Assembly (NCBI GenBank): GCA_025057905.1
Contig: JANWUX010000002.1
Span: forward strand, 62,001 to 126,000
Source of the DNA: Patescibacteria group bacterium
Lineage (GTDB): Bacteria > Patescibacteriota > Microgenomatia > UBA1406 > GWC2-37-13
Direction: 5' to 3'
DNA length: 64,000 bases
The notes under the pieces are model-generated. The model was not told the origin of the DNA. It made no database searches and worked only from the letters and a program-made list of their open reading frames with translations. This document shows positions 49,723 through 64,000 of this stretch, piece after piece. Positions within the stretch are counted from its first letter, which is position 1; each line of letters opens with the position of its first letter. Made by a program: the position numbers and the translations under genes.

Positions 49723-51102
49723 ATGGTACTTCAGAGAGTTTTTCTTACCAATGACCGACAAATTGATTCAAAAAAAGAATTTGTTCTTTACTGGGTTCAA
49801 ACAGGCTTAAGAATTAAAGACAACTACTCTCTGAAATTTGCCATTGAGACAGCTAATAAACTCAATAAACCACTTTTAGTTGTCTTTGTTCTTAAAGTTT
49901 TCCCTAATGGAAATCTTCGGCAGTATCTATTCTTAAAACAAGGATTGCTTGAGTTTAAAGAGAATCTTAAGATGCTTGGAATAAGTTTTGTGGTAAAAAA
50001 GGTAGAAAACTTCAAAGAGGTGATAAGACTATTTAATAGGGCTTGTTTAGTGGTCACTGATTTTGGCTATCTTCGGCGTCAGCGATTCTGGCGCCAATAT
50101 TTTTCATCAAAAATTGAAACAACCTTCGTTGAGGTTGAGAACAATAGTGTTTTCAATGTTAAGATCATTTTTCCGAAAAAGGCCGAGTTTGCTTTTCAAC
50201 TGAGAAAAAAAATCTTTGAGCGACTCGCTTTTCTTGAAAAAGATTTTTCTTTGCCTGAGGTGAGAATTAAAGAAAGACTTTTTTTCCAAGCCTGCGACGA
50301 GGTTAAAAAGATCTTTGATGGTCTTCAATTCAAAGAGGACGTCACCCCAGCTTTCTTTATAGGCGGAGAGGCGGAGGCAGGCCGGCGACTTAACTTATTT
50401 ATCGAAAAAAAACTCCCCTACTATCGAAGATACCGAAGTGATCCCTCAAAAAACTTTCAATCAGACCTGTCTCCTTATCTTCATTTTGGATTTATTTCCC
50501 CGGTCACAATCGTCAGGAAAATCCTAAAAAGCCACTCAGTTAAAGATGAAAATGTCTTCTCTTTTCTCAATGAACTTTTGGTTTGGCGAGAACTTGCCAG
50601 AAATTTTGTTTACTTTGAACCAAACTACGACAACTGGCAAAATCTCCCCCCCTGGGCAATCAAAACTCTCGACCGCCATCAGTCAGACAGGCGCAGTCAT
50701 GACTACTCTCTTGAGGCTTTGGAAAAAGCCAAAACCCATGATCCCTACTGGAATGCTTGTCAAAAAGAGATGGTTATCACCGGTAAAATGCACAACTACA
50801 TGAGAATGTACTGGGCCAAAAAAGTCATTGAATGGACAAAGGATTGGCGCCAGGCCTACCAGTGGTTAGTTTACCTAAATGATAAGTATGAGCTTGACGG
50901 CCGGGATCCCAACGGCTATGCCGGCATTGCCTGGAGTTTTGGCCAGTTTGATCATCCCTGGGCTGAGCGACCAATTTTTGGCCTGGTTAGATACATGAGT
51001 GCCAGCGGTCTAGAAAGAAAGTTTAACATTGGTGCCTATTTGTCAAAGATTAACTCCCTCGAAAAAGCTCATAAAGAATCACCGCCAGAAAGAGGAAGTT
51101 GA
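49723..51102 (+). CDS. phr: Class II CPD photolyase
   Basis: YWVQTGLRIKDNYSLKFAIETANKLNKPLLVVFVL; KMHNYMRMYWAKKVIEWTKDW; LDGRDPNGYAGIAWSFGQFDHPWAERPIFGLVRYMS. Confidence 0.92.
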   Translation: MVLQRVFLTNDRQIDSKKEFVLYWVQTGLRIKDNYSLKFAIETANKLNKPLLVVFVLKVFPNGNLRQYLFLKQGLLEFKENLKMLGISFVVKKVENFKEVIRLFNRACLVVTDFGYLRRQRFWRQYFSSKIETTFVEVENNSVFNVKIIFPKKAEFAFQLRKKIFERLAFLEKDFSLPEVRIKERLFFQACDEVKKIFDGLQFKEDVTPAFFIGGEAEAGRRLNLFIEKKLPYYRRYRSDPSKNFQSDLSPYLHFGFISPVTIVRKILKSHSVKDENVFSFLNELLVWRELARNFVYFEPNYDNWQNLPPWAIKTLDRHQSDRRSHDYSLEALEKAKTHDPYWNACQKEMVITGKMHNYMRMYWAKKVIEWTKDWRQAYQWLVYLNDKYELDGRDPNGYAGIAWSFGQFDHPWAERPIFGLVRYMSASGLERKFNIGAYLSKINSLEKAHKESPPERGS

Positions 51103-51721
51103 ATCCGTAAAGAAAGTCTTCAATTGGAATTGATAACACTCGCTTCTGAACAAGAATTTTTTCTTCATAGATGACAATTGGTCTCTTGGTTAGATAGAGA
51201 TTAAAAATAAAAGTTAAGCCAAAAATAAGTATGGAAAAAACCAAGAAGCGAAGACTAAGGAGATGAGGCTTCTCGAAAAAAAGTCGGTCAGCGAGAATCA
51301 GGCTTAAATTGGCGAAAACGACAAAAGCCAGATAAGGTTTTCTTTTCCAAAAAAACAAAATAAGGTAAAAAGCAATGATAAACCCAAAAATTAAAAAATT
51401 CAGCCAGGAGAAACTGATTTCTTGAGGAATGATTTTCCTAAGGTTAAGCCAGATAACCAAAGAAGAAAAAATTACTACTGGAAAAAATAAGACCTCCTCG
51501 ACCGGCAGTTTGAGAATCTTTAGCCCGATGAGATGTTTTTCGTTAAACGACCACCAATGGTTGGTCACCTGGTGGTCATGGAGAATAAATAAAGCTGAGG
51601 TAACAAAAACTGAAAGAAAGAGTTCCCTGCTTACTCCTAAGAGCGTTTCTCGGTAGAAAAGATGAGCCATAAACGGCAAACCCAAGATGATGGTGTTAAA
51701 GAGCAGATACTCTAACTTCAT
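51050..51721 (-). CDS. Lycopene cyclase-domain membrane protein
   Basis: HDHQVTNHWWSFNEKHLIGLKILKLPVEEVLFFPVVIFSSLVIW (PxE[E]xLFF motif); overlaps photolyase 3' end by 53 bp. Confidence 0.85.
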   Translation of the reverse strand: MKLEYLLFNTIILGLPFMAHLFYRETLLGVSRELFLSVFVTSALFILHDHQVTNHWWSFNEKHLIGLKILKLPVEEVLFFPVVIFSSLVIWLNLRKIIPQEISFSWLNFLIFGFIIAFYLILFFWKRKPYLAFVVFANLSLILADRLFFEKPHLLSLRFLVFSILIFGLTFIFNLYLTKRPIVIYEEKILVQKRVLSIPIEDFLYGFNFLFLAVILYELFRGS

Positions 51722-51733
51722 TCTTGATTACTT

Positions 51734-52813
51734 TTACTTTTCTCGAGAAATAAGGTAATCAGTGAGTTCGTCAAGATCAGCTTTTGCTCCACGAGGGAAG
51801 TTTCTTTGAGCAAGTATGTTTTTAATTTTCATCTTGAGATTTTTGATGAGGGTTTCAATCTTTTTTTTGGCCGCGGATCTTAAATAAAACTCTCGAAGGC
51901 GACTAATCTCCGATTTAGATAGGTTTCCTCGCCCAAAAAGGTTGACAAATGATGACTGGCAAATTTCCGGGTACAGGTAATGATAGACGATTGTCTTTTT
52001 ATTCTCCTTAATATCAGAACCTAGAGTTTTGCCGGTTTTGTCAGAAAGAAAGCCGATCAAGTCGTCGGTAATCTGAAAGAGTATCCCGATCCCCTCTAGA
52101 ACTTTTATAAGTAGCGGATTTTTTGCCTGCTGGTTACCAGTCAAGATGAGGGTAGCGATGACTGGAACAACAAAAGTATACCTGGCTGTTTTGTAGAGAT
52201 ATATCCTTTTGATCTGTGCTAAAGTTGGTTTATAGTCAGTCAGACTATAAGTTATGTCGTCCATTTGAGCTAGGGCTACCTTAAGATATTCACTCACAAG
52301 AAACTCAGAAAGTTGAGTGCGAGTTGGCTGGTTTGTGATGATTTTTTCAAGAAAATGAGACCCAAGAAAGAAACCAAGATCGCCAAGGTTGACAGCTAGA
52401 CTGCTGCCTAAAAACTCCGGCCAATTAGAGAGTCCTTGGTACTTTTCCTGGAAGTAAAAATTAACGGTCTTCTCGCCTCTTCGGTAAGTGTCTCGATCCA
52501 TGACATCATCGTGAATTAAAAGAGTTGAGTGAATAATCTCGAGAAAACTTGCCAGAAAAAAAAGATTTTTATTATCGAAGTTTCTTTTTTGATTAAACCA
52601 TTCATCGGTCAAGAAAACGAGACTACTCCTTATTCCCTTCCCTCGGCTGACGAAGTTTTGGTAAAGAGAGAAGATCTCTTCTTTGGTTTTTGAATATGTT
52701 AAAAAATGAGGTTTGACTTTCATTAACTGGTCGTCAAGAAACCTGAAGATTTTTTTTCGATATTGATTAAGTTTTTCGGTTAAGGACATAGACAGAGAAA
52801 AACACCTCAACAA
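51734..52813 (-). CDS. Polyprenyl (geranylgeranyl) diphosphate synthase
   Basis: FLEIIHSTLLIHDDVMDRDTYRRGEKTVN; LFQITDDLIGFLSDKTGKTLGSDIKENKKT. Confidence 0.92.
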   Translation of the reverse strand: MLRCFSLSMSLTEKLNQYRKKIFRFLDDQLMKVKPHFLTYSKTKEEIFSLYQNFVSRGKGIRSSLVFLTDEWFNQKRNFDNKNLFFLASFLEIIHSTLLIHDDVMDRDTYRRGEKTVNFYFQEKYQGLSNWPEFLGSSLAVNLGDLGFFLGSHFLEKIITNQPTRTQLSEFLVSEYLKVALAQMDDITYSLTDYKPTLAQIKRIYLYKTARYTFVVPVIATLILTGNQQAKNPLLIKVLEGIGILFQITDDLIGFLSDKTGKTLGSDIKENKKTIVYHYLYPEICQSSFVNLFGRGNLSKSEISRLREFYLRSAAKKKIETLIKNLKMKIKNILAQRNFPRGAKADLDELTDYLISREK

Positions 52814-53615
52814 TTGTTTTTGCTATTTGAAAAAAAGTCGGCTTAAACTGATTCTTTTTGAAGATGAGATTGGGATTGGTGGCAATTTTTTTTCCGATCT
52901 GTTGGTAGAGAGAGACAGCAACTTTTATCGGAAAGAGAATGTTTTTCTCAAGGACTAAGTATCCTTTTCTTGCTTCTCTTTCCAGTCTAAATGATTTCTC
53001 GAGCAAGGCAGTGACTAACTTTTTGAGACAATTTCTTTTTTCTTCTTTCAGAAAATTCTTTTGAGTGAGATGGTGTTTTTTTAGGAGATCAGCCGGCAGA
53101 TAAATCTTTTGACGGCGGTAGTCTTCATAAAGGTCTCTAATATTGTTGATGATCTGAAGAGAAATACCAAGATTTTTAGCCTCAGGATAAACAGTTTTTG
53201 GCAGGCCAAACAGCTTCGCCATCATCACTCCAATGGTGCCGGCAACCCCATTAGTGAACTGGCTGAACTCTCTGAAGGTTAAGTATCTCTTTTTAGTCAG
53301 TTCCTTTTCTTGGGTTTTTAAGTAGAGGCGCATCTCGTGTTCAAGATTCTTTTCCTTGATAAGGTGGCCGATGTCGTTTACAATCCTTATTGATGATTTT
53401 CTTTCTTCTTTAAGGAAGGCTTCGAGATTCTTTTTCAGAAGGAAAAATTTTTTTTTGTTAGGCTTTTTCATGTCAACAAGATTGTCAATAATGCGAACAA
53501 AGGCATATAGTAAAAAGACCTGGTCTCGGATTTTCTTTGGGAAAAAGAGAGTTGAGTAATAAAAAGTTCGGGTGAATTTTTTAGTGAGTTTCTGATAGAC
53601 GCTGACCATATTCAT
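52767..53615 (-). CDS. crtB: Phytoene synthase
   Basis: TFYYSTLFFPKKIRDQVFLLYAFVRIIDNLVD; GISLQIINNIRDLYEDYRRQKIYLPADLLKKH. Confidence 0.9.
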   Translation of the reverse strand: MNMVSVYQKLTKKFTRTFYYSTLFFPKKIRDQVFLLYAFVRIIDNLVDMKKPNKKKFFLLKKNLEAFLKEERKSSIRIVNDIGHLIKEKNLEHEMRLYLKTQEKELTKKRYLTFREFSQFTNGVAGTIGVMMAKLFGLPKTVYPEAKNLGISLQIINNIRDLYEDYRRQKIYLPADLLKKHHLTQKNFLKEEKRNCLKKLVTALLEKSFRLEREARKGYLVLEKNILFPIKVAVSLYQQIGKKIATNPNLIFKKNQFKPTFFQIAKTIVEVFFSVYVLNRKT

Positions 53616-55086
53616 TCACTAGCTTAGCAACAATCTGGGCAGAGATTAAGACCGGCGGCATACCGACACCTGGGTTGGTGTGCTGACCGACATAAAAGAG
53701 ATTTTTAATCTTGGATGAGAAGTTTTTTGGCCGAAAGAGAGCTGTCTGAAAAAAAGTGTGGGCCAGGCCAAATGCCGCTCCAAGCGTTGCTCGGTAATCA
53801 TTGAGAAAATCTGTCCCCTGGAAAATTTTCTTGACAACAATTTTCTTTTCTATGTCTTGAACTTGATTAAGATGGGCAAACTGACGGAGAATTTTGATGG
53901 AAAAAGCCTGGCTTTGGTCTTCGTTAAGAAAAACACCGGGTGGCATGGGAACCAGAATCATGACGCTGTGGTGATTTTTTGGCGCAAGCGATAGATCGGT
54001 TTTCGTTGGAACATGCCAGTAAAACGATGGATTTGTGGGAATGGCTCTTTTCTGGTAAACCTCTCTAAAGTGATTTTCCCAGTCGTCAGTGAAAAAAAGG
54101 TTGTGATGGTCGCTTTTCTCTAGAGGATGGCGAATGCCAAGATAAATCAAGAAGGCTGAGGGTGAAAAAACTTTTTTTCGCCAGTAACTCTCTGGATAGG
54201 TTTGATAATTTGGCGGAAGGATCTTTGTCTCAAAAAAAGGGTAGTCAGCATTGACAACAACAATATCGGCCGGGTAGGGGGTTTTGTCAGTAACGACAGC
54301 GATTATTCTCCTATGAGATATCGTCACCTGTTTTACCTCTTCTTTTGTTTTGATAATCACCCCATTTTTTTCGGCTAGATCTTTTAAGGCTTTAACCACC
54401 TGATAGATACCTCCCTTTGGGTAGTAAATTCCAAGATTAAAGTCGGCATGAGTAACCAGCTTATAGAAAGCTGGCGTGTTAAATGGCGAGCCACCCAAGA
54501 AAACGGTAGTGTACTCAAGGACCTTCTGTAGTTTTTTAGATCTAAAAACAGCCTTCACATAGTCGTGAAGAGAGCGAAATAGGTCGAAGCGAAAAAGGAT
54601 ATCAAATAGAAGTTTTGGTCGAAGAAGGGTCTTCAGGTCACGGTAGTCTTGAAAGACAAGCTCTTTCATAGCTTGATTGTAGATAAACGCCGATTTTTTT
54701 AACACCAATTCCAGCTTTTTGTTACCGTCTTTTTCAAGTTTTTTAAATGTTTGTTTGTTTTTTTCAAGATCACTGGTGATGTCAAGGGTTGTTTTGTTCT
54801 CAAAAAAAATCCGATAGTGAGTTTTCAGGCGAATCAGTTTGTAGTAGTCAGTGGTTTTTTTACCAAAAATTTGGAAATAATTCTCAAACACCTCCGGCAT
54901 CATATACCAAGAGGGACCCATGTCAAAAAAAAAGTTCTTGAGTTTTAAATAACGAGCTCGTCCTCCAACCAGTCGATTTTTCTCAATGATAGTCACTTGA
55001 TAGCCAGCGTGACCAAGAAGAGCGCTTGTCGCCAGTCCGCCAATGCCGCCGCCGACGACAACAACGCGCCTTCCTGATAAATTCAT
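53581..55086 (-). CDS. crtI: Phytoene desaturase (CrtI-type)
   Basis: RRVVVVGGGIGGLATSALLGHAGYQVTIIEKNRLVGGRARYLKLKNFFFDMGPSWYMMPEVFENYF; YVGQHTNPGVGMPPVLISAQIVAKLV. Confidence 0.94.
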   Translation of the reverse strand: MNLSGRRVVVVGGGIGGLATSALLGHAGYQVTIIEKNRLVGGRARYLKLKNFFFDMGPSWYMMPEVFENYFQIFGKKTTDYYKLIRLKTHYRIFFENKTTLDITSDLEKNKQTFKKLEKDGNKKLELVLKKSAFIYNQAMKELVFQDYRDLKTLLRPKLLFDILFRFDLFRSLHDYVKAVFRSKKLQKVLEYTTVFLGGSPFNTPAFYKLVTHADFNLGIYYPKGGIYQVVKALKDLAEKNGVIIKTKEEVKQVTISHRRIIAVVTDKTPYPADIVVVNADYPFFETKILPPNYQTYPESYWRKKVFSPSAFLIYLGIRHPLEKSDHHNLFFTDDWENHFREVYQKRAIPTNPSFYWHVPTKTDLSLAPKNHHSVMILVPMPPGVFLNEDQSQAFSIKILRQFAHLNQVQDIEKKIVVKKIFQGTDFLNDYRATLGAAFGLAHTFFQTALFRPKNFSSKIKNLFYVGQHTNPGVGMPPVLISAQIVAKLVNEYGQRLSETH

Positions 55087-55634
55087 GAGAGATAGCGCTT
55101 AATTTTCGTAAGGGAGAGTTTCTTTACCCAGGGGGCAAAGTTAAAGTTCTTGAACTTCTTAAGGATGTTTTCTAAGCTGATGTAATCCATTCCATAGCTA
55201 AACTCCTCAACATTTTCTATCTTACCCTCAATCTCCATCAGATAAAGATAATTTATCTCATGCTCAGTGTAATCTGAATGAGGATCTTTTTCTTTGTAGT
55301 AATACTTTTCAAGAAATCTAAGACTCGTTATCTTTCCCTTTAGCCTCCACTCACGCTTAAAGTTTTCTTTGATTGCCTCTTCAACTGATTGGACATGGTC
55401 TTTTTTCAAGTAGCGAGGATGGGAAGAGAAAGATAAATCAAAAACATTGTTGAAAACTTTGTGCTTTCTTTTTTGAATAACAAATAAGCCATTGTTTTTT
55501 ATGATACAAGTGAAGCCTCGGTGAAGAACGCCTTTGAGATGAGCTTTCCAGCGATCGACCGGCCCAAGTTCTTTATCTTTTCTGTCAACCTGAATCAGGT
55601 CTATTTTTTGCGAAAAATACTCCTCTCGGTTCAT
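55083..55634 (-). CDS. idi: Isopentenyl-diphosphate delta-isomerase, type I (Nudix)
   Basis: GVLHRGFTCIIKNNGLFVIQKRKHKVFNNVFDLSFSSHPRY...EAIKENFKREW...EHEINYLYLME. Confidence 0.82.
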   Translation of the reverse strand: MNREEYFSQKIDLIQVDRKDKELGPVDRWKAHLKGVLHRGFTCIIKNNGLFVIQKRKHKVFNNVFDLSFSSHPRYLKKDHVQSVEEAIKENFKREWRLKGKITSLRFLEKYYYKEKDPHSDYTEHEINYLYLMEIEGKIENVEEFSYGMDYISLENILKKFKNFNFAPWVKKLSLTKIKRYLS

Positions 55635-57060
55635 AAAAAAGCCCTAGATGGCTTATTAATCAAATTATACCACAATCTTGAAGTAATGTTAACCAAAGAA
55701 AGGAGTGGCAAAAGCTCGAGAGATTTCCTCTGACTGGGTTTTCCTTTTTGATTTGCCAGAGCTGGTCTTTTGAAAGATTGATGTTTTATGTCAGTCAACA
55801 ACTCCCAAGGTATTTTTTTCTTTCTATGACCAAGCCAGAGACTGATAAATCTTCGCTGTTGATCATTGTCCTTTTCTTGTTTTAAAGGATTGTAAATTCT
55901 GATCGTGTTAATCCCAGTTATTCCAGCCTGCATCTGAAACTGAGGGAAATGAATGCCTGTTTCAAAATCAAGAAAGTAGCGAGAAAGAATCTTCGCAGCC
56001 TCCGGCCAGGGCTGGCGAAGCCCATGGCAAAAAAAAGAGACGACCATAGCTCTCATTCGAAAGTTAATCCAGCCCGTCTTCTTAAGGCTCTTCATCACTG
56101 CATCGACCAAGTCAACACCCGTTTCCCCCTCGGACCATCGCTCAATCAGCTCGTCGTTTTTCTGGTCGTAAATGACCTCATTTCAAAATGCAGGATTAAT
56201 GTTGGTAATCTCATACTTTGGCATGGATTCAAGTTTTTGAATAAAATTAGACCGCAAGTAAATTCTTGAGAGAAAGGCGTCGATGTTGATTTTTGTTTTC
56301 TGATTGTTTGGGTGAGTCTTAGCTGCCTGATAGACATATCTGGAGGAAAGATTGCCCCAGCTCAGGTAAGGTGACAGCCTGGAGCAAAAAAAAAGTCGCT
56401 TCATATGGTTTTGAGATCGATTTAAGATAATAAAAGACTCTATTATCCAGAAAATCTCTCAAGATTTTGATTGCCTCTTTTTCCCCTGGCTTTTGAAACC
56501 AGACGGGATAGTTGTCAAGCTTTCTTGAAAGGGTGTCTGGCAGACGAAACTTCTCTAGATTAAGTGTCGGTTGGTGGCCAGGAGATATCTTGGGGGGTAG
56601 CAGATTGGTGATTCAAGCCAAGAAAAAAGATGCTCACGCCAGTTTTTTCTCTCTTTTAAGCCTCTTAAGATCCCATCCTTTTCAATCTCAATCCAGTGAA
56701 TGTTTTTTTTCCTAAAAAAAACGTCTCAGTTTCTTGTCTCGGTCAAATGTCAAAAGCGTGCCAACTTCCTGATAGGAAAAAACTTTATGAATCTTTTTTG
56801 TTTATCAATTCCTCAAGGATTGCCGTTGCCTCACCAAAAAAAAACTCAACCTGGCGATGGTATCGGGCAAGCGATCTGTTTAAACTTTTGATTGACTAAT
56901 AGACGAACTGTAGATGACGAATATCTGAGTGATCGCTTTCCAGCAGAAAATGATCAAAAATGTAGATAATTCGGTAATCAAGGTTCTTCTGCTCTACCAG
57001 CGAAAAAAGCTGATTATCAACAAATCGAAGATCTCGTTTCAGGTAGACGATGTTAATCAT
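55631..57060 (-). pseudogene. Decayed photolyase/cryptochrome-family gene
   Basis: Start MINIVYLKRDLRFVDNQLFSLVEQKNLDYRIIYIFDHFLL...HLQFVY*(TAG 56896-56898)SIKSL; later frames give NIHWIEIEKDGILRGLK, LSPYLSWGNLSSRYVYQAAK, then intact tail VDAVMKSLKKTGWINFRMRAMVVSFFCHGLRQPWPEAAKILSRYFLDFETGIHFPQFQMQAGITGINTIRIYNPLKQ. Multiple frameshifts. Confidence 0.88.
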
Positions 57061-57146
57061 CGCTGCCTTTTTGAAACTACCCGAGAGAAAAATCCTTCGC
57101 TAATTTTTTTGATAAAATAACGAAGAAATCAAATTATAACTCAAAA

Positions 57147-57560
57147 ATGACCTCAAAGAAAAATAGGTCCCGACATCAACAGGAGATCAAGTCGATTATT
57201 GAAGAAATGTCTCACCTGTTCTCTTTTACTGATCTGATTGACATTTTCAAAAAAAAGAAAATTTCAATTCACCGTACAACCATCTATCGAAACCTAAAAA
57301 AGTTAATTACTGAAGGGAAGATTATTTTTGTCTCCCAGGAAGGAAAGAAAACTTTTTTTGAAAAAGCCAGCGACAAGGATAATCATCATCATCTAATTTG
57401 CCAGAAATGTCTGAAGATTTTTTCTTTCAAAGAAGATGAGCTTGATCGGGCGGTTGCCAGTGCCAAAGAAAAGATTGAGGAGCAAACCAGCTTTAGGATC
57501 AAGACCTTCAGATTTGACCTCTTTGGTCAGTGTTATTCTTGCTCGAAGAAAAGTGAATGA
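57147..57560 (+). CDS. Fur-family metalloregulator
   Basis: RHQQEIKSIIEEMSHLFSFTDLIDIFKKKKISIHRTTIYRNLKKLITEGKI; HHHLICQKCLKIFSF...GQCYSC. Confidence 0.9.
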   Translation: MTSKKNRSRHQQEIKSIIEEMSHLFSFTDLIDIFKKKKISIHRTTIYRNLKKLITEGKIIFVSQEGKKTFFEKASDKDNHHHLICQKCLKIFSFKEDELDRAVASAKEKIEEQTSFRIKTFRFDLFGQCYSCSKKSE

Positions 57561-58435
57561 TTAATTTTGGCTTTGGTTTTTTCTGCTCAACCGCTGACAA
57601 CAGTCTCTCAACTAACCACCGAATCTCCCTGAAAAATCTTAGCGAAAAGAACCTGCTCTCAACCTTCGAAAAAAACTGTCAGGATCTGCTGGCGCTTTTG
57701 AAATTATCCCACCAGCTAGGTTGTTCAATATTCCGGCTGGGTAGCCAGTTTGTCCCTTTCCTCACTCACCCTGACTTTAAGCCGGCCTGGTGGCAGACAA
57801 TTAAAAAACGCCTGATGGCTCTCTCTCCTGAAGTCAAGAAATTTGGTCTACGGCTAACTATGCATCCGTCCCAGTTTGTCGTTCTAAATTCAGATAGCCG
57901 TGAGGTTATCGACCGCTCTCTGGCAGAGATAGACTATCACTTCTTTGTTCTTGATCATCTTGGAGTTGATGAAAATGGCGTGGTTATCATTCACATCGGC
58001 AAGGGTAAAGAAGACAAGAAGACCTATCTAAAAAAGTTTATTAAAAAAGTAAAAGAAGAAAAATGGTTGAGGCGGCGGTTAGTGATCGAAAATGACGACA
58101 GTCTATACACAGTGGCCGACGCTCTTTTTGTGTTCGAGGAGACAGGCTTGCCGGTGGTTTTTGATTACTTTCACCATAAACTCAATCCCTCAGCAATCGA
58201 CCTAAAGAAAGTAATTATTAGCTGGCAAGGGCGAACTCCTGAGTTTCATCTTTCCTCTCAGAATCCCCAAGGAAAAAGGGGGGAACACAGTGATTTTGTC
58301 GTCACCGAGGACATCGATGGTTTTCTTCAGATGACCGGCTCGCTCCCCTATTTTGATTTGATTATCGAAGCAAAAAAAAAGGAATTGGCGATTATTGACT
58401 TTAAAAAGAGATTCAGTCAGAGCTTCAAGAACTAA
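57557..58435 (+). CDS. uvsE: UV DNA damage endonuclease (UVDE/UvsE)
   Basis: LLALLKLSHQLGCSIFRLGSQFVPFLTHP; GLRLTMHPSQFVVLNSDSREVIDRSLAEIDYHFFVLDHLG; VIHIGKGKEDKKTYLKKF; RLVIENDDSLYTVADAL. Confidence 0.93.
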   Translation: MINFGFGFFCSTADNSLSTNHRISLKNLSEKNLLSTFEKNCQDLLALLKLSHQLGCSIFRLGSQFVPFLTHPDFKPAWWQTIKKRLMALSPEVKKFGLRLTMHPSQFVVLNSDSREVIDRSLAEIDYHFFVLDHLGVDENGVVIIHIGKGKEDKKTYLKKFIKKVKEEKWLRRRLVIENDDSLYTVADALFVFEETGLPVVFDYFHHKLNPSAIDLKKVIISWQGRTPEFHLSSQNPQGKRGEHSDFVVTEDIDGFLQMTGSLPYFDLIIEAKKKELAIIDFKKRFSQSFKN

Positions 58436-58485: not shown

Positions 58486-58515
58486 TTGACAGAGACGATT
58501 GTTATGAAGTAAAAT
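58486..58515 (+). promoter_or_regulatory. Sigma70-type promoter
   Basis: TTGACA (58486-58491), 18-nt spacer, TAAAAT (58510-58515). Confidence 0.75.
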
Positions 58516-58517
58516 CT

Positions 58518-58532
58518 TGCAACTAAGTTGCA
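58518..58532. promoter_or_regulatory. Perfect 7-1-7 palindromic operator candidate
   Basis: TGCAACT-A-AGTTGCA immediately downstream of the -10, 17 nt before ATG 58550. Confidence 0.75.
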
Positions 58533-58549
58533 TTTAAAAAATTTAAAAA

Positions 58550-59461
58550 ATGAGAGTTGCCTTCCTGGGCAAGGGTGGGGTTGGCAAAACAACTCTGGCA
58601 GCAGCAATGGCCAAGTATCTGGCCAAGAAGATGCCTTTGGTTTTGGCTATTGACGCTGATGTCAACGAGCACCTAAATCAAGCTTTGGCCATTGACAAAC
58701 CCTTGGTCTTTTTGGGCGATCACTTTGACTGGTTGTTTGATTTTCTCTTTAAAAAGCGCCTTTTTAAGATCAGTGGCCTTCCTCGTGTTGGTTTCCTTCC
58801 CCCTTCGACTGAGTCCCGATTTATCGTCTTTGGCAAGGAGGATCCAGTGATTGCGAAGTTTTTTTGTTTTAAAGATAACTTCGGAGTGGCAATGGTTGGC
58901 AGCTACTCAAAAACTGAGATTGGTGCCTGGTGTTATCACGGTCGGCTTAACACCCTTGAGCTCTTTTTGCACTACCTCGTTGATAAAAAAGACCAAGTCT
59001 TGATCTTAGACATGAATCCTGGGGTTGATATTGTCGCCACCTCTCTTTACTTCGCTTGCGATGTTTACCTTTTTGTCGTCGAGCCGACAATAAAAAGCCT
59101 TCAAGTGTTTCTTGACTTTAAAAAACTTGTTGGTGACCGACTCAAGAAATATAAAATCCAAGTTGGTGTCATCATTAACAAAATCTATGACGAGGGGGAC
59201 CTTGAATTTATCTCCAAGTACAAGCTGAAGGACCCGATCCTGGCAAAGATCCCCTATTTTCTAACGGTTGTGGAACCCCAATCATTGGTTGACCAGCTCG
59301 TCAAAGATTACTCGTCCCTTTTTGACATGATCATCAGCCAGTTGGTTTCCCTTCGAACCAAAGAGGATTACTATCGCCAGCTGACTGAGTATTTCCTTTC
59401 AAGGTTCAAAGAGGAGTCAGTAACTAAGTTTATCGATCCAAACTTTTCCTTTACTAGTTAA
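58550..59461 (+). CDS. CooC/ParA/MinD-like P-loop ATPase, paralog 1
   Basis: MRVAFLGKGGVGKTTLAAAMAKYLAKK...IDADVNEHL; WCYHGRLNTLELFLHYLV; C-terminal FIDPNFSF. Confidence 0.85.
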   Translation: MRVAFLGKGGVGKTTLAAAMAKYLAKKMPLVLAIDADVNEHLNQALAIDKPLVFLGDHFDWLFDFLFKKRLFKISGLPRVGFLPPSTESRFIVFGKEDPVIAKFFCFKDNFGVAMVGSYSKTEIGAWCYHGRLNTLELFLHYLVDKKDQVLILDMNPGVDIVATSLYFACDVYLFVVEPTIKSLQVFLDFKKLVGDRLKKYKIQVGVIINKIYDEGDLEFISKYKLKDPILAKIPYFLTVVEPQSLVDQLVKDYSSLFDMIISQLVSLRTKEDYYRQLTEYFLSRFKEESVTKFIDPNFSFTS

Positions 59462-59473
59462 CCAAAGATTCTC

Positions 59474-60430
59474 ATGAAGGTTACTTTTATTGGCAAGGGT
59501 GGCAGCGGAAAGACAACACTAGCCTGCCTTTTTGTTCATTATTTGCTAAAAAAAAACAAAAAAATCCTTGCCGTTGATGCTGATCTAAATGATCACTTTG
59601 GTTACTACTTAGGTTTTCGGGAAAAACCACCCGCCTTCGGCGAGGCTTTTTTTGAGCTAGCCGACTATATTTTTGGCAGTTATAAACCAGCCACTTTTCC
59701 AAAGATTGGCACTATCCCCCCTCGACGAGGTTATCACAACTTTCAAATCGATGACAGTGACTGGGTGATCAAAAAATATACCCTTAAAAAAGGTTATCTC
59801 TACTATCTTAATGTTGGCACCTACAAAGAAGAAAACGTTGGCAATGTTTGCTTTCATGGTAAACTGAACAGCTTAGAGCTCTACCTCAACTATTTGCTTG
59901 AAAAAGAAACTGAATTTGTTGTCATTGATGCCATGGCTGGCACTGATTATCTTGCTACTTCTCTTTACTATTCTTCTGACATCTATTTTTTTGTCATTGA
60001 GCCAACTCTTTCTAGTCTTGAGGTTTTCTTTCAGTATCTGTCTAAGATTGAGGGAGAAATTGACAGATTCAAGATCGCAATCTATCCAATTGCCAACAAA
60101 ATCGTTGATGATCGACAGCTTGATTTTCTCAAACCGCGCTTGAGAGCCTATGCTGACAATCTGATTGTCTTTCCTTTTGATCGAAATTATCGCCGGCTAG
60201 AGCAAACCTACGATCTGAGTCTTTACTCACAGCTGATAAAAAACAATCTATTCTCTCTCGAGGAAGTTTTTTCTCGAGCTTCAATAAAGCGCCGGTCGCC
60301 AGAAGAGTTCTACAAAGGTCTGCGAGAGCTATTTGTCCGTGAGTGCTTGAAATGGGTCAATGAGACTTACAAACAAGACTTCCGTTTTTTAATCGATCCA
60401 GATTTTCGGTCGTTTGCGCTTGAAAACTAA
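59474..60430 (+). CDS. CooC/ParA/MinD-like P-loop ATPase, paralog 2
   Basis: MKVTFIGKGGSGKTTLACLFVHYLLKK...VDADLNDHF; VCFHGKLNSLELYLNYLL; C-terminal LIDPDFRSF. Confidence 0.87.
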   Translation: MKVTFIGKGGSGKTTLACLFVHYLLKKNKKILAVDADLNDHFGYYLGFREKPPAFGEAFFELADYIFGSYKPATFPKIGTIPPRRGYHNFQIDDSDWVIKKYTLKKGYLYYLNVGTYKEENVGNVCFHGKLNSLELYLNYLLEKETEFVVIDAMAGTDYLATSLYYSSDIYFFVIEPTLSSLEVFFQYLSKIEGEIDRFKIAIYPIANKIVDDRQLDFLKPRLRAYADNLIVFPFDRNYRRLEQTYDLSLYSQLIKNNLFSLEEVFSRASIKRRSPEEFYKGLRELFVRECLKWVNETYKQDFRFLIDPDFRSFALEN

Positions 60431-61824
60431 TGTATCAACGTCAACCACTGATTGACGAGCGCTGGCAAAAATTCCTTGATCAAGTTGAAGTCATTGAGCT
60501 GGTCGACAGATACGGCTCACCTTTGAATGTGATTTTGCCGACTCGTCTGAAAGAAAATATCGAGTCATTTAAACAGATCTTTCGAAAGTTTGGTCTGCCC
60601 CCAAAAATTTTCTTTGCTCATAAAGTGACCAAATCTTTAGCCCTAGTAAAGCAGGCAAAGGCTGCTCAGGTTGGTATCGATGTTTCTTCTGTTGGTGAGC
60701 TTGAGCAGGCTCATCAGGCTGGTTTTTCCAAAGATGAGATTGTTGCCAACGGTCCAAAGAGCGATCCTTTTCTTGAGGCCTGTCTCAAGGCCAAGGTGAT
60801 TATCATCGTTGATTCTCTTTTGGAACTGAAGCGGATTTTAGACAGAAACACATCATCTGGAAAACTAAAAGTTCTCCTTAGAGTCTCTGATTTTAATTCG
60901 GCTCACGTGAAGATAAACCCCCAGCTGGATCGGTTTGGGATTGAGTTTCAAAAGATTGATCAAGCTCTGGCACTAATTGCCTCTTGTCCAGGTCAGATTG
61001 ATCTTTTAGGTTTTTCATTTCATTTCAATGATGACAGTTTTGAAAAACGAGTAGTGGCTCTGGAGATGCTTCTGGAAAAAGTTTTTTTGCTTCGAAAACA
61101 AGGTTGGAAACTGAAAGTGATCGACATTGGCGGTGGTTTCCGGTCAAACTATTTAAAAGAAAAAAAACACTGGGTGGAATTTGTTGAAAAATTTAAGCAG
61201 ATGATCGTCTCTGGCCATCATAGAGTTAGCTATGACGGCAAAACTTACGGTTTTCAGATAGTCGACGGGACGATTAAAGGCAGTCCGACATTCCCAGCTT
61301 ACTATACCGAGAGACCAGGAGCAAAGCTTTTCGAGGAAGTTCTCAGTTTTCGATCACCAACTTTCGGCGAGACTTCTTTGGGGAGACTGGCTTTGGATCT
61401 TGGTCTTGAGATCTGGGTCGAGCCTGGGCAGGCGCTTGTCGATCAAGTTGGTCTGACAGTGATGAGAGTGATTGATGTCAAGGTAAAACTCGGTGAGCGA
61501 GTCATCATCGTTGAAGGTAACTACACAAACTTGTTCGCTGACCATCTGGAAATGTTTGTCGATCCGCTGGTGATAAAGAGGACAAGCCCTTCTTCCCCTT
61601 TCAAACATAGCTATTTTGTTGCCGGTAACTTATGCCTGGGGATGGATCTTATCGTCAATCACAAAGTTTTTTTGCCGGAGGTTTCAGCCGGCGATCTTTT
61701 AGTTTTTCCAAACACAGCTGCTTATCGAATGGATTTTGTTGATGCCTCGCCTCTTCTTCAGCCTCGACCAAGAAGGGTTATCTGGTCACCGGATGAGTTA
61801 GCTGTTTACCCGGAAAGTAACTAA
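60430..61824 (+). CDS. PLP-dependent fold-III decarboxylase (LysA/SbnH/Y4yA-like)
   Basis: YGSPLNVILPTRLKENIESFKQIF...KIFFAHKVTKSLALVKQAKAAQVGIDVSSVGELEQAHQAG; LKVIDIGGGF; VAGNLCLGMDLI; start overlaps preceding stop (TAATG). Confidence 0.85.
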   Translation: MYQRQPLIDERWQKFLDQVEVIELVDRYGSPLNVILPTRLKENIESFKQIFRKFGLPPKIFFAHKVTKSLALVKQAKAAQVGIDVSSVGELEQAHQAGFSKDEIVANGPKSDPFLEACLKAKVIIIVDSLLELKRILDRNTSSGKLKVLLRVSDFNSAHVKINPQLDRFGIEFQKIDQALALIASCPGQIDLLGFSFHFNDDSFEKRVVALEMLLEKVFLLRKQGWKLKVIDIGGGFRSNYLKEKKHWVEFVEKFKQMIVSGHHRVSYDGKTYGFQIVDGTIKGSPTFPAYYTERPGAKLFEEVLSFRSPTFGETSLGRLALDLGLEIWVEPGQALVDQVGLTVMRVIDVKVKLGERVIIVEGNYTNLFADHLEMFVDPLVIKRTSPSSPFKHSYFVAGNLCLGMDLIVNHKVFLPEVSAGDLLVFPNTAAYRMDFVDASPLLQPRPRRVIWSPDELAVYPESN

Positions 61825-63128
61825 TGGCTATTTATCGATCAATTACTGAGGTCATTGGCAACACTCCTTTGCTTCTTCTTGATCCTAAAAAAACAGGAAT
61901 AAAAAACATCGAAATTTATGCCAAACTTGAATATCTTAACCCATTTGGCTCAATCAAGGATCGAACTGCTTTTGGGATGATCAAAGAGGAGCTCCCTAGA
62001 CTGAAAAAGGAGTCGCGAAAGATCATCGAAGCCTCAAGTGGCAACACCATAAAAGCTCTGGCTGGCTTGGCTAACCTCTGCGGCCTGTCATCGGTTAGCG
62101 TCACCAATCGAATCCGGGTCCCCGAGATTAAAGAGATTTTGTTGCTAATGGGCGTTGAGATAATCGAAACACCGGGCCGAAGCGCTTGTCTTGATCCAAA
62201 CAACCCTGATGACCCTCTTTATGTTATCAATAAAATGATACTCGCTGAGCCGGACAAATACTTTTATCCAAATCAATATCACAACGAAAATAATCCAGCC
62301 ATCCATGAGCAGACGACCGCTCAAGAGATCCTCAGAGACTTGGGGTCGATTGATTATCTGTTTGCCTCTTTGGGGACGACGGGATCGTCTTTGGGCCTAT
62401 TTCGGGCCTTAAAAAAAGAGAATCCCCGACTAAAGATTTTTGGTATCGCTGCCTCAGCCGAGGACTTTATTCCAGGAATTCGAAGCCAAGGCGAACTTTT
62501 AGAAGTGGGCCTGTTTGAACCAGAAATCTATGAGGAGATCATCTATGTCTCCAGTTTGAAGGCTCTTGAAGCAATGAGAGAGTTAATCATTAATTTTGGC
62601 ATTTTAGCTGGCCCAAGCAGTGGGTCAGTTTACTTTGCCGCCAAGAATAAACTTTCTTACCTTAACTCGGAGACATCAGGCAAGAAAGCAGTCATTATAA
62701 CCTGCGATCGGTTTGAATGGTATCTTTCCTATATCAAAAAAAGAAAGCCAGAATGGTTTGGCTTGAAAAAAAAAGCCCACAGTCCCTATGAGTTTGAGTT
62801 TGACGAGAATTTTCCCTATGAAATTGAGTCAGAAAACTTACTTGAATTTATTCAAAAAAATGAGCCACTTGTGATTGATCTTCGATCACCTTTTGCCTTC
62901 CAGCTTGGCCACTTGCCCGAGTCAATTAATATTGAAGCTTCTTTTTTTGCGGAGTTGGTTGATGATCGAAGGCCATTTTCTATAAAAAAACCGTTGCTTT
63001 TGGTTTGTGCCATTGGTGTTGTTTCGAAGCGTCTAGCTGCTTACCTGCGAACTCTTGGATATGAAAGCTATTCTCTCAAGTATGGTCTCAATAGTTTTGA
63101 GGGTGATCTGGAAAGCTCTGATCAATGA
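61824..63128 (+). CDS. Cysteine synthase-like PLP enzyme fused to C-terminal rhodanese domain
   Basis: ITEVIGNTPLLLLDPKK...LEYLNPFGSIKDRTAFGMI...IEASSGNTIKALAGLA...LFASLGTTGSSLGLFRAL; C-terminal EPLVIDLRSPFAFQLGHLPESINIEASFF...LLLVCAIGVVSKRLAAYLRTLGYESYSLKYGLNSF. Confidence 0.9.
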   Translation: MAIYRSITEVIGNTPLLLLDPKKTGIKNIEIYAKLEYLNPFGSIKDRTAFGMIKEELPRLKKESRKIIEASSGNTIKALAGLANLCGLSSVSVTNRIRVPEIKEILLLMGVEIIETPGRSACLDPNNPDDPLYVINKMILAEPDKYFYPNQYHNENNPAIHEQTTAQEILRDLGSIDYLFASLGTTGSSLGLFRALKKENPRLKIFGIAASAEDFIPGIRSQGELLEVGLFEPEIYEEIIYVSSLKALEAMRELIINFGILAGPSSGSVYFAAKNKLSYLNSETSGKKAVIITCDRFEWYLSYIKKRKPEWFGLKKKAHSPYEFEFDENFPYEIESENLLEFIQKNEPLVIDLRSPFAFQLGHLPESINIEASFFAELVDDRRPFSIKKPLLLVCAIGVVSKRLAAYLRTLGYESYSLKYGLNSFEGDLESSDQ

Positions 63129-64000
63129 GTCAAGAGAATAAATATCGTCGTCATTTTCCTCTTTTTGATCATCAGCCAGCGCTTGTCTATCTTAATTCAT
63201 CAGCGGTCAATCCTCTTCCTCGCTTTTCAATTGAGAAATTGACACAGCTTCTTGGCCAGACTGTTCTTCTTGAAAATCGAGATAACGCATTTTTAAGCCA
63301 AAAAATAAATCAAATGATCGAGATAACAAGAAGAAAAATCCTCAACTTTTTTTCTGCCAATGAAAAACTCTGGTTCGTTTTCTTCACCGCCGGCACAACC
63401 GATTGGGTCAATCGACTGGCCCTGTTGATGTTGACAGATTTTTTTAAAGAGGAAGACAAGGTTCTTGTTGGTCAAAATGATCATCAATCAGTTGTTTATC
63501 CTTTTGTTTGGCTTTCGCAATTAGCAAAAGCGAGCAAACCCAAAATGCGAGTTTGGGTTAGATTTTACCTCAATGCTGAAAATGGTTTGATTGACTCTAG
63601 AAATTTTCTCTCTCTTGTTGACAGTCGAACAAGATTGGTCATTCTCAGTCTTGTCAACAACAGCTTTGGTGTCATAAATGATCTTAAATGGTTGATAAAT
63701 CAGACTAAGATAAAAATAAATAACAGCCAAGAGAAGTTACCTCTTTTTTGTATCGATATCAACCAGGCTGTTTTGAGAACAAAGATTGATCTAGAGTCAA
63801 TTGGGGGCGACTGTTATTTTTTTTCGGGGGAAAAGCTCTTGGGACTTGGCGGGGTCGGGGTGGTGATTGTAAGAAAAGATCGACTGAAGACTTTGCCGGT
63901 GATTTTTTCCGGCAGTGGCGGCGGTTTTGAGTTTTCTAACAATGAGCTCTCGATAAAAAACCTCTGGCAGGCTCAGGAGGTAGGAACAAAAAATGTCTTG
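63125..64000 (+). CDS. Class V aminotransferase / cysteine desulfurase-like, truncated by window edge
   Basis: Translation from ATG 63125 (ATGA overlap with upstream stop): MSQENKYRRHFPLFDHQPALVYLNSSAVNPLPRFSIEKL...VFFTAGTTDWVNRLALL...DKVLVGQNDHQSVVYPFVW...FCIDINQAVLRTKIDLESIGGDCYFFSGEKLLGLGGVGVVIVRKDRL. Confidence 0.82.
   Translation, partial: MSQENKYRRHFPLFDHQPALVYLNSSAVNPLPRFSIEKLTQLLGQTVLLENRDNAFLSQKINQMIEITRRKILNFFSANEKLWFVFFTAGTTDWVNRLALLMLTDFFKEEDKVLVGQNDHQSVVYPFVWLSQLAKASKPKMRVWVRFYLNAENGLIDSRNFLSLVDSRTRLVILSLVNNSFGVINDLKWLINQTKIKINNSQEKLPLFCIDINQAVLRTKIDLESIGGDCYFFSGEKLLGLGGVGVVIVRKDRLKTLPVIFSGSGGGFEFSNNELSIKNLWQAQEVGTKNVL

Follow-up and report, generated by a model that had tools for sequence, protein, structure and literature searches.

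The 64,000-nucleotide stretch analyzed here (the window, to which coordinates refer unless labeled otherwise) comes from contig JANWUX010000002.1 of a Patescibacteria group bacterium and contains a 15-bp palindrome at the predicted start site of an operon for CooC-like ATPases and pyridoxal phosphate (PLP) enzymes. Based on its sequence and its conservation in relatives, we consider it likely that a zinc-responsive repressor of the Fur family (Zur-type) uses this palindrome as its operator to control the ATPase/PLP operon. Promoter and site are arranged as follows:

58486..58515, + strand: predicted sigma-70 promoter TTGACA-N18-TAAAAT, from the sequence and a consensus scan (11 of 12 positions matching)
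58518..58532, strand not assigned: predicted operator TGCAACT-A-AGTTGCA (TGCAACTAAGTTGCA), a Zur-type box; exact match, kept in relatives ahead of Fur, ZIP and ZnuA genes

The -35 element TTGACA (58486-58491) and the -10 element TAAAAT (58510-58515) are separated by an 18-bp spacer, and the perfect palindrome begins 2 bp past the -10, at the expected transcription start; the first ATPase gene starts (ATG) at 58550, 17 bp downstream of it. All these elements are present, letter for letter, as described in an earlier interpretation made from the DNA only (the sequence-only reading). That interpretation had also relied on the 7-1-7 geometry as typical of Fur-type operators, which carries no significance of its own: the window contains 10 perfect 7-1-7 dyads, against a mean of 9.05 in 20 dinucleotide shuffles. 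Palindromy by itself is thus no evidence of an operator, and the case rests on the particular sequence and the comparative data. The inverted repeat of Zur operators, TGCAAC-N3-GTTGCA, is matched exactly at 58518-58532, and the loose form TGCAA-N5-TTGCA has a single occurrence across the whole 783-kb genome. A ZUR site, ATGCAACnnnGTTGCAT, was predicted ahead of znuABC-zur in two Desulfovibrio species (PMC545781); the window site agrees with this pattern at all of the inner 15 bp, its outer bases being T and T.

Whole genomes were searched for the exact motif TGCAACTNAGTTGCA, with the reversed sequence as control. Among 147 relatives there were 11 exact sites in 9 genomes (reversed control, 0), and among 382 genomes of the class 30 exact sites in 28 genomes (reversed control, 1). 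Open reading frames were called around every site and compared with Fur, ZIP, ZnuA and the operon proteins, site classes were assigned by reading, and representative neighbor proteins were verified by Pfam. There are 34 distinct exact sites, three within unrelated coding genes and 31 ahead of genes. Among these 31, the site is followed by Fur, ZIP or ZnuA genes in 26 cases, by a Fur gene with an HlyD-type gene in one, and by the ATPase operon in four, two of these with the Fur gene first. The usual orders behind the box are Fur then ZIP, Fur then ZnuA, and ZIP or ZnuA either without a Fur gene or with a divergent one. A Fur gene is present in 27 of the 28 motif genomes versus 117 of 382 overall (Fisher p 2.8e-14, nominal since the genomes are related), and in the sole motif genome lacking one (G228) the site falls in a coding region. 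Phylogenetic footprinting, proposed as a check by the sequence-only reading, therefore finds the box conserved in relatives in a Fur/ZIP/ZnuA context.

In most relatives the box occupies the promoter spacer (TTGACAAA-TGCAACTNAGTTGCA-TATAAT); the window, L009 and L012 have it downstream of the -10, at the expected transcription start. From both positions a bound repressor would be able to stop initiation. At one locus (L046, in G247) the box is followed by a Fur-family gene and then by an HlyD-type membrane-fusion gene, possibly an efflux branch.

The ATPase is rare in the class (3 of 147 relatives, 7 of 382 class genomes), and all class ATPase loci with upstream sequence are boxed, exactly in G000, G033, G381 and G419 and with variants in G036 (TGCAACATTGTTGCA) and G201 (TGCAACTCATTTGCA); the G277 locus is interrupted by a contig end. 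The order in G381 and G419 is COG0523 gene, box, Fur, ATPase, PALP-rhodanese, and the G033 locus has an additional methyltransferase and an adjoining major facilitator superfamily transporter. A phylum-wide ATPase profile search provided an out-of-sample set of 11 further genomes, with 10 intact loci and one broken copy (G422). The Fur gene directly adjoins the ATPase in all 10 intact loci, divergent or co-operonic, and L083 has a ZIP gene at the locus besides Fur. When the region ahead of the ATPase gene, or ahead of a Fur gene that opens the operon, was scored against the motif, the best upstream 15-mer reached at least 11 of 14 in 8 of 9 out-of-sample loci, where about 2% is expected for each under a null of random 220-bp stretches, not intergenic ones, the p-value being approximate. 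L082, which is outside this 9-locus count, carries the related sequence CGCAACCTGGTTGCA close to where its Fur gene begins. Forms resembling TGCAAATNATTTGCA, to which the operator has drifted in L079 and L080, indicate that it evolves yet retains its class. Judged from gene order, the linkage of the ATPase family with Fur genes is a lasting one. In the broken copy (L086, in G422) the ATPase, decarboxylase and PALP genes are all disrupted, reflecting either a cassette being lost or a faulty assembly.

Within the window, the candidate regulator is encoded close to the operon:

57147..57560, + strand: Fur-family regulator gene, likely Zur (PF01475, E 1.3e-15); sole Fur-family gene detected across the assembly; best PDB match 3mwm
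57557-58435: UvsE gene, between the Fur gene and the operon

The domain match confirms the Fur-family gene that the sequence-only reading had named. The best PDB sequence match of its product, 3mwm, is a Streptomyces metal uptake regulator, which we take to be the Zur protein of S. coelicolor. The Fur domain and the HHH motif are present, and the structural cysteines 85, 88, 129, and 132 are intact. As no second Fur-family gene was found in the assembly, this protein is probably the binder of the palindrome. A literature search, with the phylum taken as Patescibacteria, found no paper on Zur in the group.

Zinc is the most likely signal, because ZnuA, ZIP, and COG0523 genes neighbor the box in relatives; COG0523 genes are often under Zur control (PMC2770081). 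Nickel, sensed by a Nur-type protein, is the main alternative, and iron and peroxide are unsupported. Of the metal- or peroxide-responsive repression suggested earlier, metal-responsive Fur-family control is upheld by the footprint in relatives, and the iron and peroxide options find no support, as both gene context and sequence differ.

The approximate null of the upstream scores apart, several observations weigh against a zinc-responsive operator at this site. The same-genus genomes sampled have no exact box. Such a box is also lacking upstream of the Fur gene of the window and at the only ZIP gene found in this genome (48929-49681, - strand), unlike its counterparts in relatives. The regulator has N79 and F121 where nearly all box-associated relatives keep histidines, and these altered residues may have changed its metal site. 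The content of PLP genes differs between loci. Finally, the box matches the consensus of the Streptomyces nickel regulator, tTGCaa-N5-ttGCAA, at 11 of 12 positions (PMC3919588). The genome scan that had been proposed alongside the footprinting succeeded in relatives, where the box lies ahead of zinc-uptake genes, and not in the genome itself, which has no exact site ahead of a metal-uptake gene and in which ZnuA, looked for as a hidden target, was not found; the evidence consequently comes from the relatives. A box with one mismatch, TGCAACTAAGTTGTA (L016:6107-6121 = C3:224106-224120), is located just upstream of a frame-broken FAD/NAD oxidoreductase remnant. It perhaps marks a decayed second target and says little about the regulon, since only this remnant follows it.

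The resemblance to the Streptomyces consensus is one of two arguments for a nickel-responsive (Nur-type) operator with CooC-like ATPases that handle nickel, which we regard as unlikely; the other is that the ATPases have as their best solved relative CooC, an ATPase that inserts nickel (PMC6006190). However, the CxC site of CooC-1, formed by Cys112 and Cys114 at the dimer interface, takes either Zn or Ni (PMC6006190), and relatives have the same box ahead of ZnuA, ZIP, and a COG0523 gene. The flanks of the box favor A...T, which the ZUR site of Desulfovibrio also has, and not T...A, with the promoter hexamers biasing these flanks. In addition, no CO dehydrogenase-family gene (PF03063) was matched in the genome, in which other nickel enzymes were not searched for.

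A box of the iron (Fur) or peroxide (PerR) kind is very improbable. The proximity of a Fur-family gene would fit it, and the regulator of the window scores somewhat better with the models for Bacillus Fur and PerR than with that for enterobacterial Zur, all far under cut-off. The site TGCAACTAAGTTGCA, however, is unlike the consensus types GATAATGATNATCATTATC or TTATAATNATTATAA quoted in PMC545781, and none of the exact copies read in relatives precedes iron-uptake or peroxide genes. Hardly any weight can be given to a chance dyad, or to an RNA hairpin acting only in the leader: perfect 7-1-7 dyads are indeed no commoner than in shuffles and the transcript is able to form a 6-bp hairpin at the palindrome, but the sequence is conserved across families with matching gene context, palindromic variants occur (e.g., TGCAACATTGTTGCA, TGCAAATCATTTGCA, TGCAAGTCACTTGCA), and in most relatives the box is inside the promoter spacer and hence untranscribed.

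The operon behind the putative Zur-type operator comprises five genes:

58550..59461, + strand: CooC-like P-loop ATPase 1, with C128-x-H130 at the CooC metal-site position (CooC 3kje, E 6.5e-30, family profile; model and Foldseek)
59474..60430, + strand: CooC-like P-loop ATPase 2, a paralogue of ATPase 1 (34% identity, same C-x-H)
60430..61824, + strand: PLP decarboxylase of LysA/BtrK fold (PF02784, PF00278; best PDB matches BtrK and diaminopimelate decarboxylase)
61824..63128, + strand: fusion of a cysteine-synthase-like PLP enzyme with a rhodanese domain (PF00291, PF00581; PDB 8h4q/8h4h, cysteine synthases)
63125..64000, + strand, running past the window end: SufS-like class V aminotransferase (PF00266; 419 aa in total, full gene in L014)

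With the ATPase family profile, CooC (3kje) is the best solved relative, and C-Y-H is aligned to the C-Y-C of CooC; the Cys and His of C-x-H are invariant in 16 ATPase homologues. CooC1 is also the top structural match of the AlphaFold model of ATPase 1 (mean pLDDT 89.7), at a moderate TM-score of 0.58-0.68. None of the NCBIfam models attains its cut-off against ATPase 1. CO dehydrogenase maturation was considered as a role for the ATPases and rejected because of the missing PF03063 gene. The nearest solved relatives of the PALP-rhodanese protein (61824-63128), 8h4q and 8h4h, are titled just 'Rhodanese domain-containing protein', and a literature search located no paper on them. The region upstream of the operon (49723-58435) groups a photolyase-like gene with several carotenoid-type genes in a row and the UvsE endonuclease gene (names assigned by eye except UvsE), which suggests a light- or UV-exposed life style.

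The regulatory half of our proposal is well supported by these sequence comparisons. A Fur-family dimer loaded with metal (zinc), probably the product of 57147-57560, would bind both half-sites at the transcription start and block initiation at the ATPase/PLP promoter; in zinc shortage the protein would lose its metal and leave the DNA, and the operon would be expressed. The role of the operon may be ATP-driven zinc handling, or the synthesis of a zinc ligand, in zinc limitation. The ATPases could hold zinc between two subunits via C-x-H, with ATP controlling its release, as has been proposed for CooC and nickel, and the PLP and sulfur-transfer enzymes could make a sulfur- or amine-containing zinc ligand. 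We put forward only tentatively that the Zur-linked CooC-like C-x-H ATPases, found in several classes of one small-genome phylum, might be ATP-driven zinc metallochaperones paralleling the COG0523 GTPases, and that together with the decarboxylase, cysteine-synthase-rhodanese, and desulfurase-like genes the operon might make a new zinc ligand.

The operator belongs to a known kind, the Zur type, and the operon under it is the new part: the literature searched, which omits most subscription journals, holds no described counterpart. A single 15-bp operator offers a testable regulatory code for metal starvation in bacteria whose regulation has been little studied by experiment, and links an unnamed family of CooC-like ATPases and a PLP-enzyme cassette to the metal-starvation response. 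If zinc is indeed the signal, these ATPases would be a second nucleoside triphosphatase (NTPase) family alongside COG0523 in zinc allocation, and the cassette might provide very small genomes with a new route to a metallophore.

Known systems resemble parts of this arrangement. The Desulfovibrio ZUR operator (PMC545781) has the same TGCAAC half-site and the same spacing, and the relatives examined here share its Fur-family/zinc-uptake context; in contrast to that site, itself a computational prediction, the site in the window would control the ATPase/PLP operon and not a transporter. The Nur box of Streptomyces coelicolor (PMC3919588) is a very similar inverted repeat for a Fur-family regulator, but Nur is nickel-specific, whereas the gene context in relatives indicates zinc. 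The zinc-repressed biosynthetic genes for ethylenediaminedisuccinate (EDDS) in Amycolatopsis japonicum, under Zur control in the passages of PMC6103462 and PMC9252823 that cite them, are alike in regulation; for the zinc-ligand reading of the operon they provide an analogy only, with gene content uncompared. The ATPases share with CooC (3kje; PMC6006190) the SIMIBI fold, the deviant Walker A motif and a metal-site cysteine at the equivalent position, and differ from it in having C-x-H for C-x-C, a C-terminal extension and Fur linkage, and in lacking a co-occurring CO dehydrogenase in their own genome. The Zur-regulon GTPases of COG0523 (YciC/ZNG1 type; PMC2770081) are likewise nucleotide-hydrolysing proteins of zinc limitation, and their genes adjoin the ATPase in G381 and G419; the two are nevertheless separate NTPase families, COG0523 being of the G3E type and the ATPases described here MinD/CooC-like.
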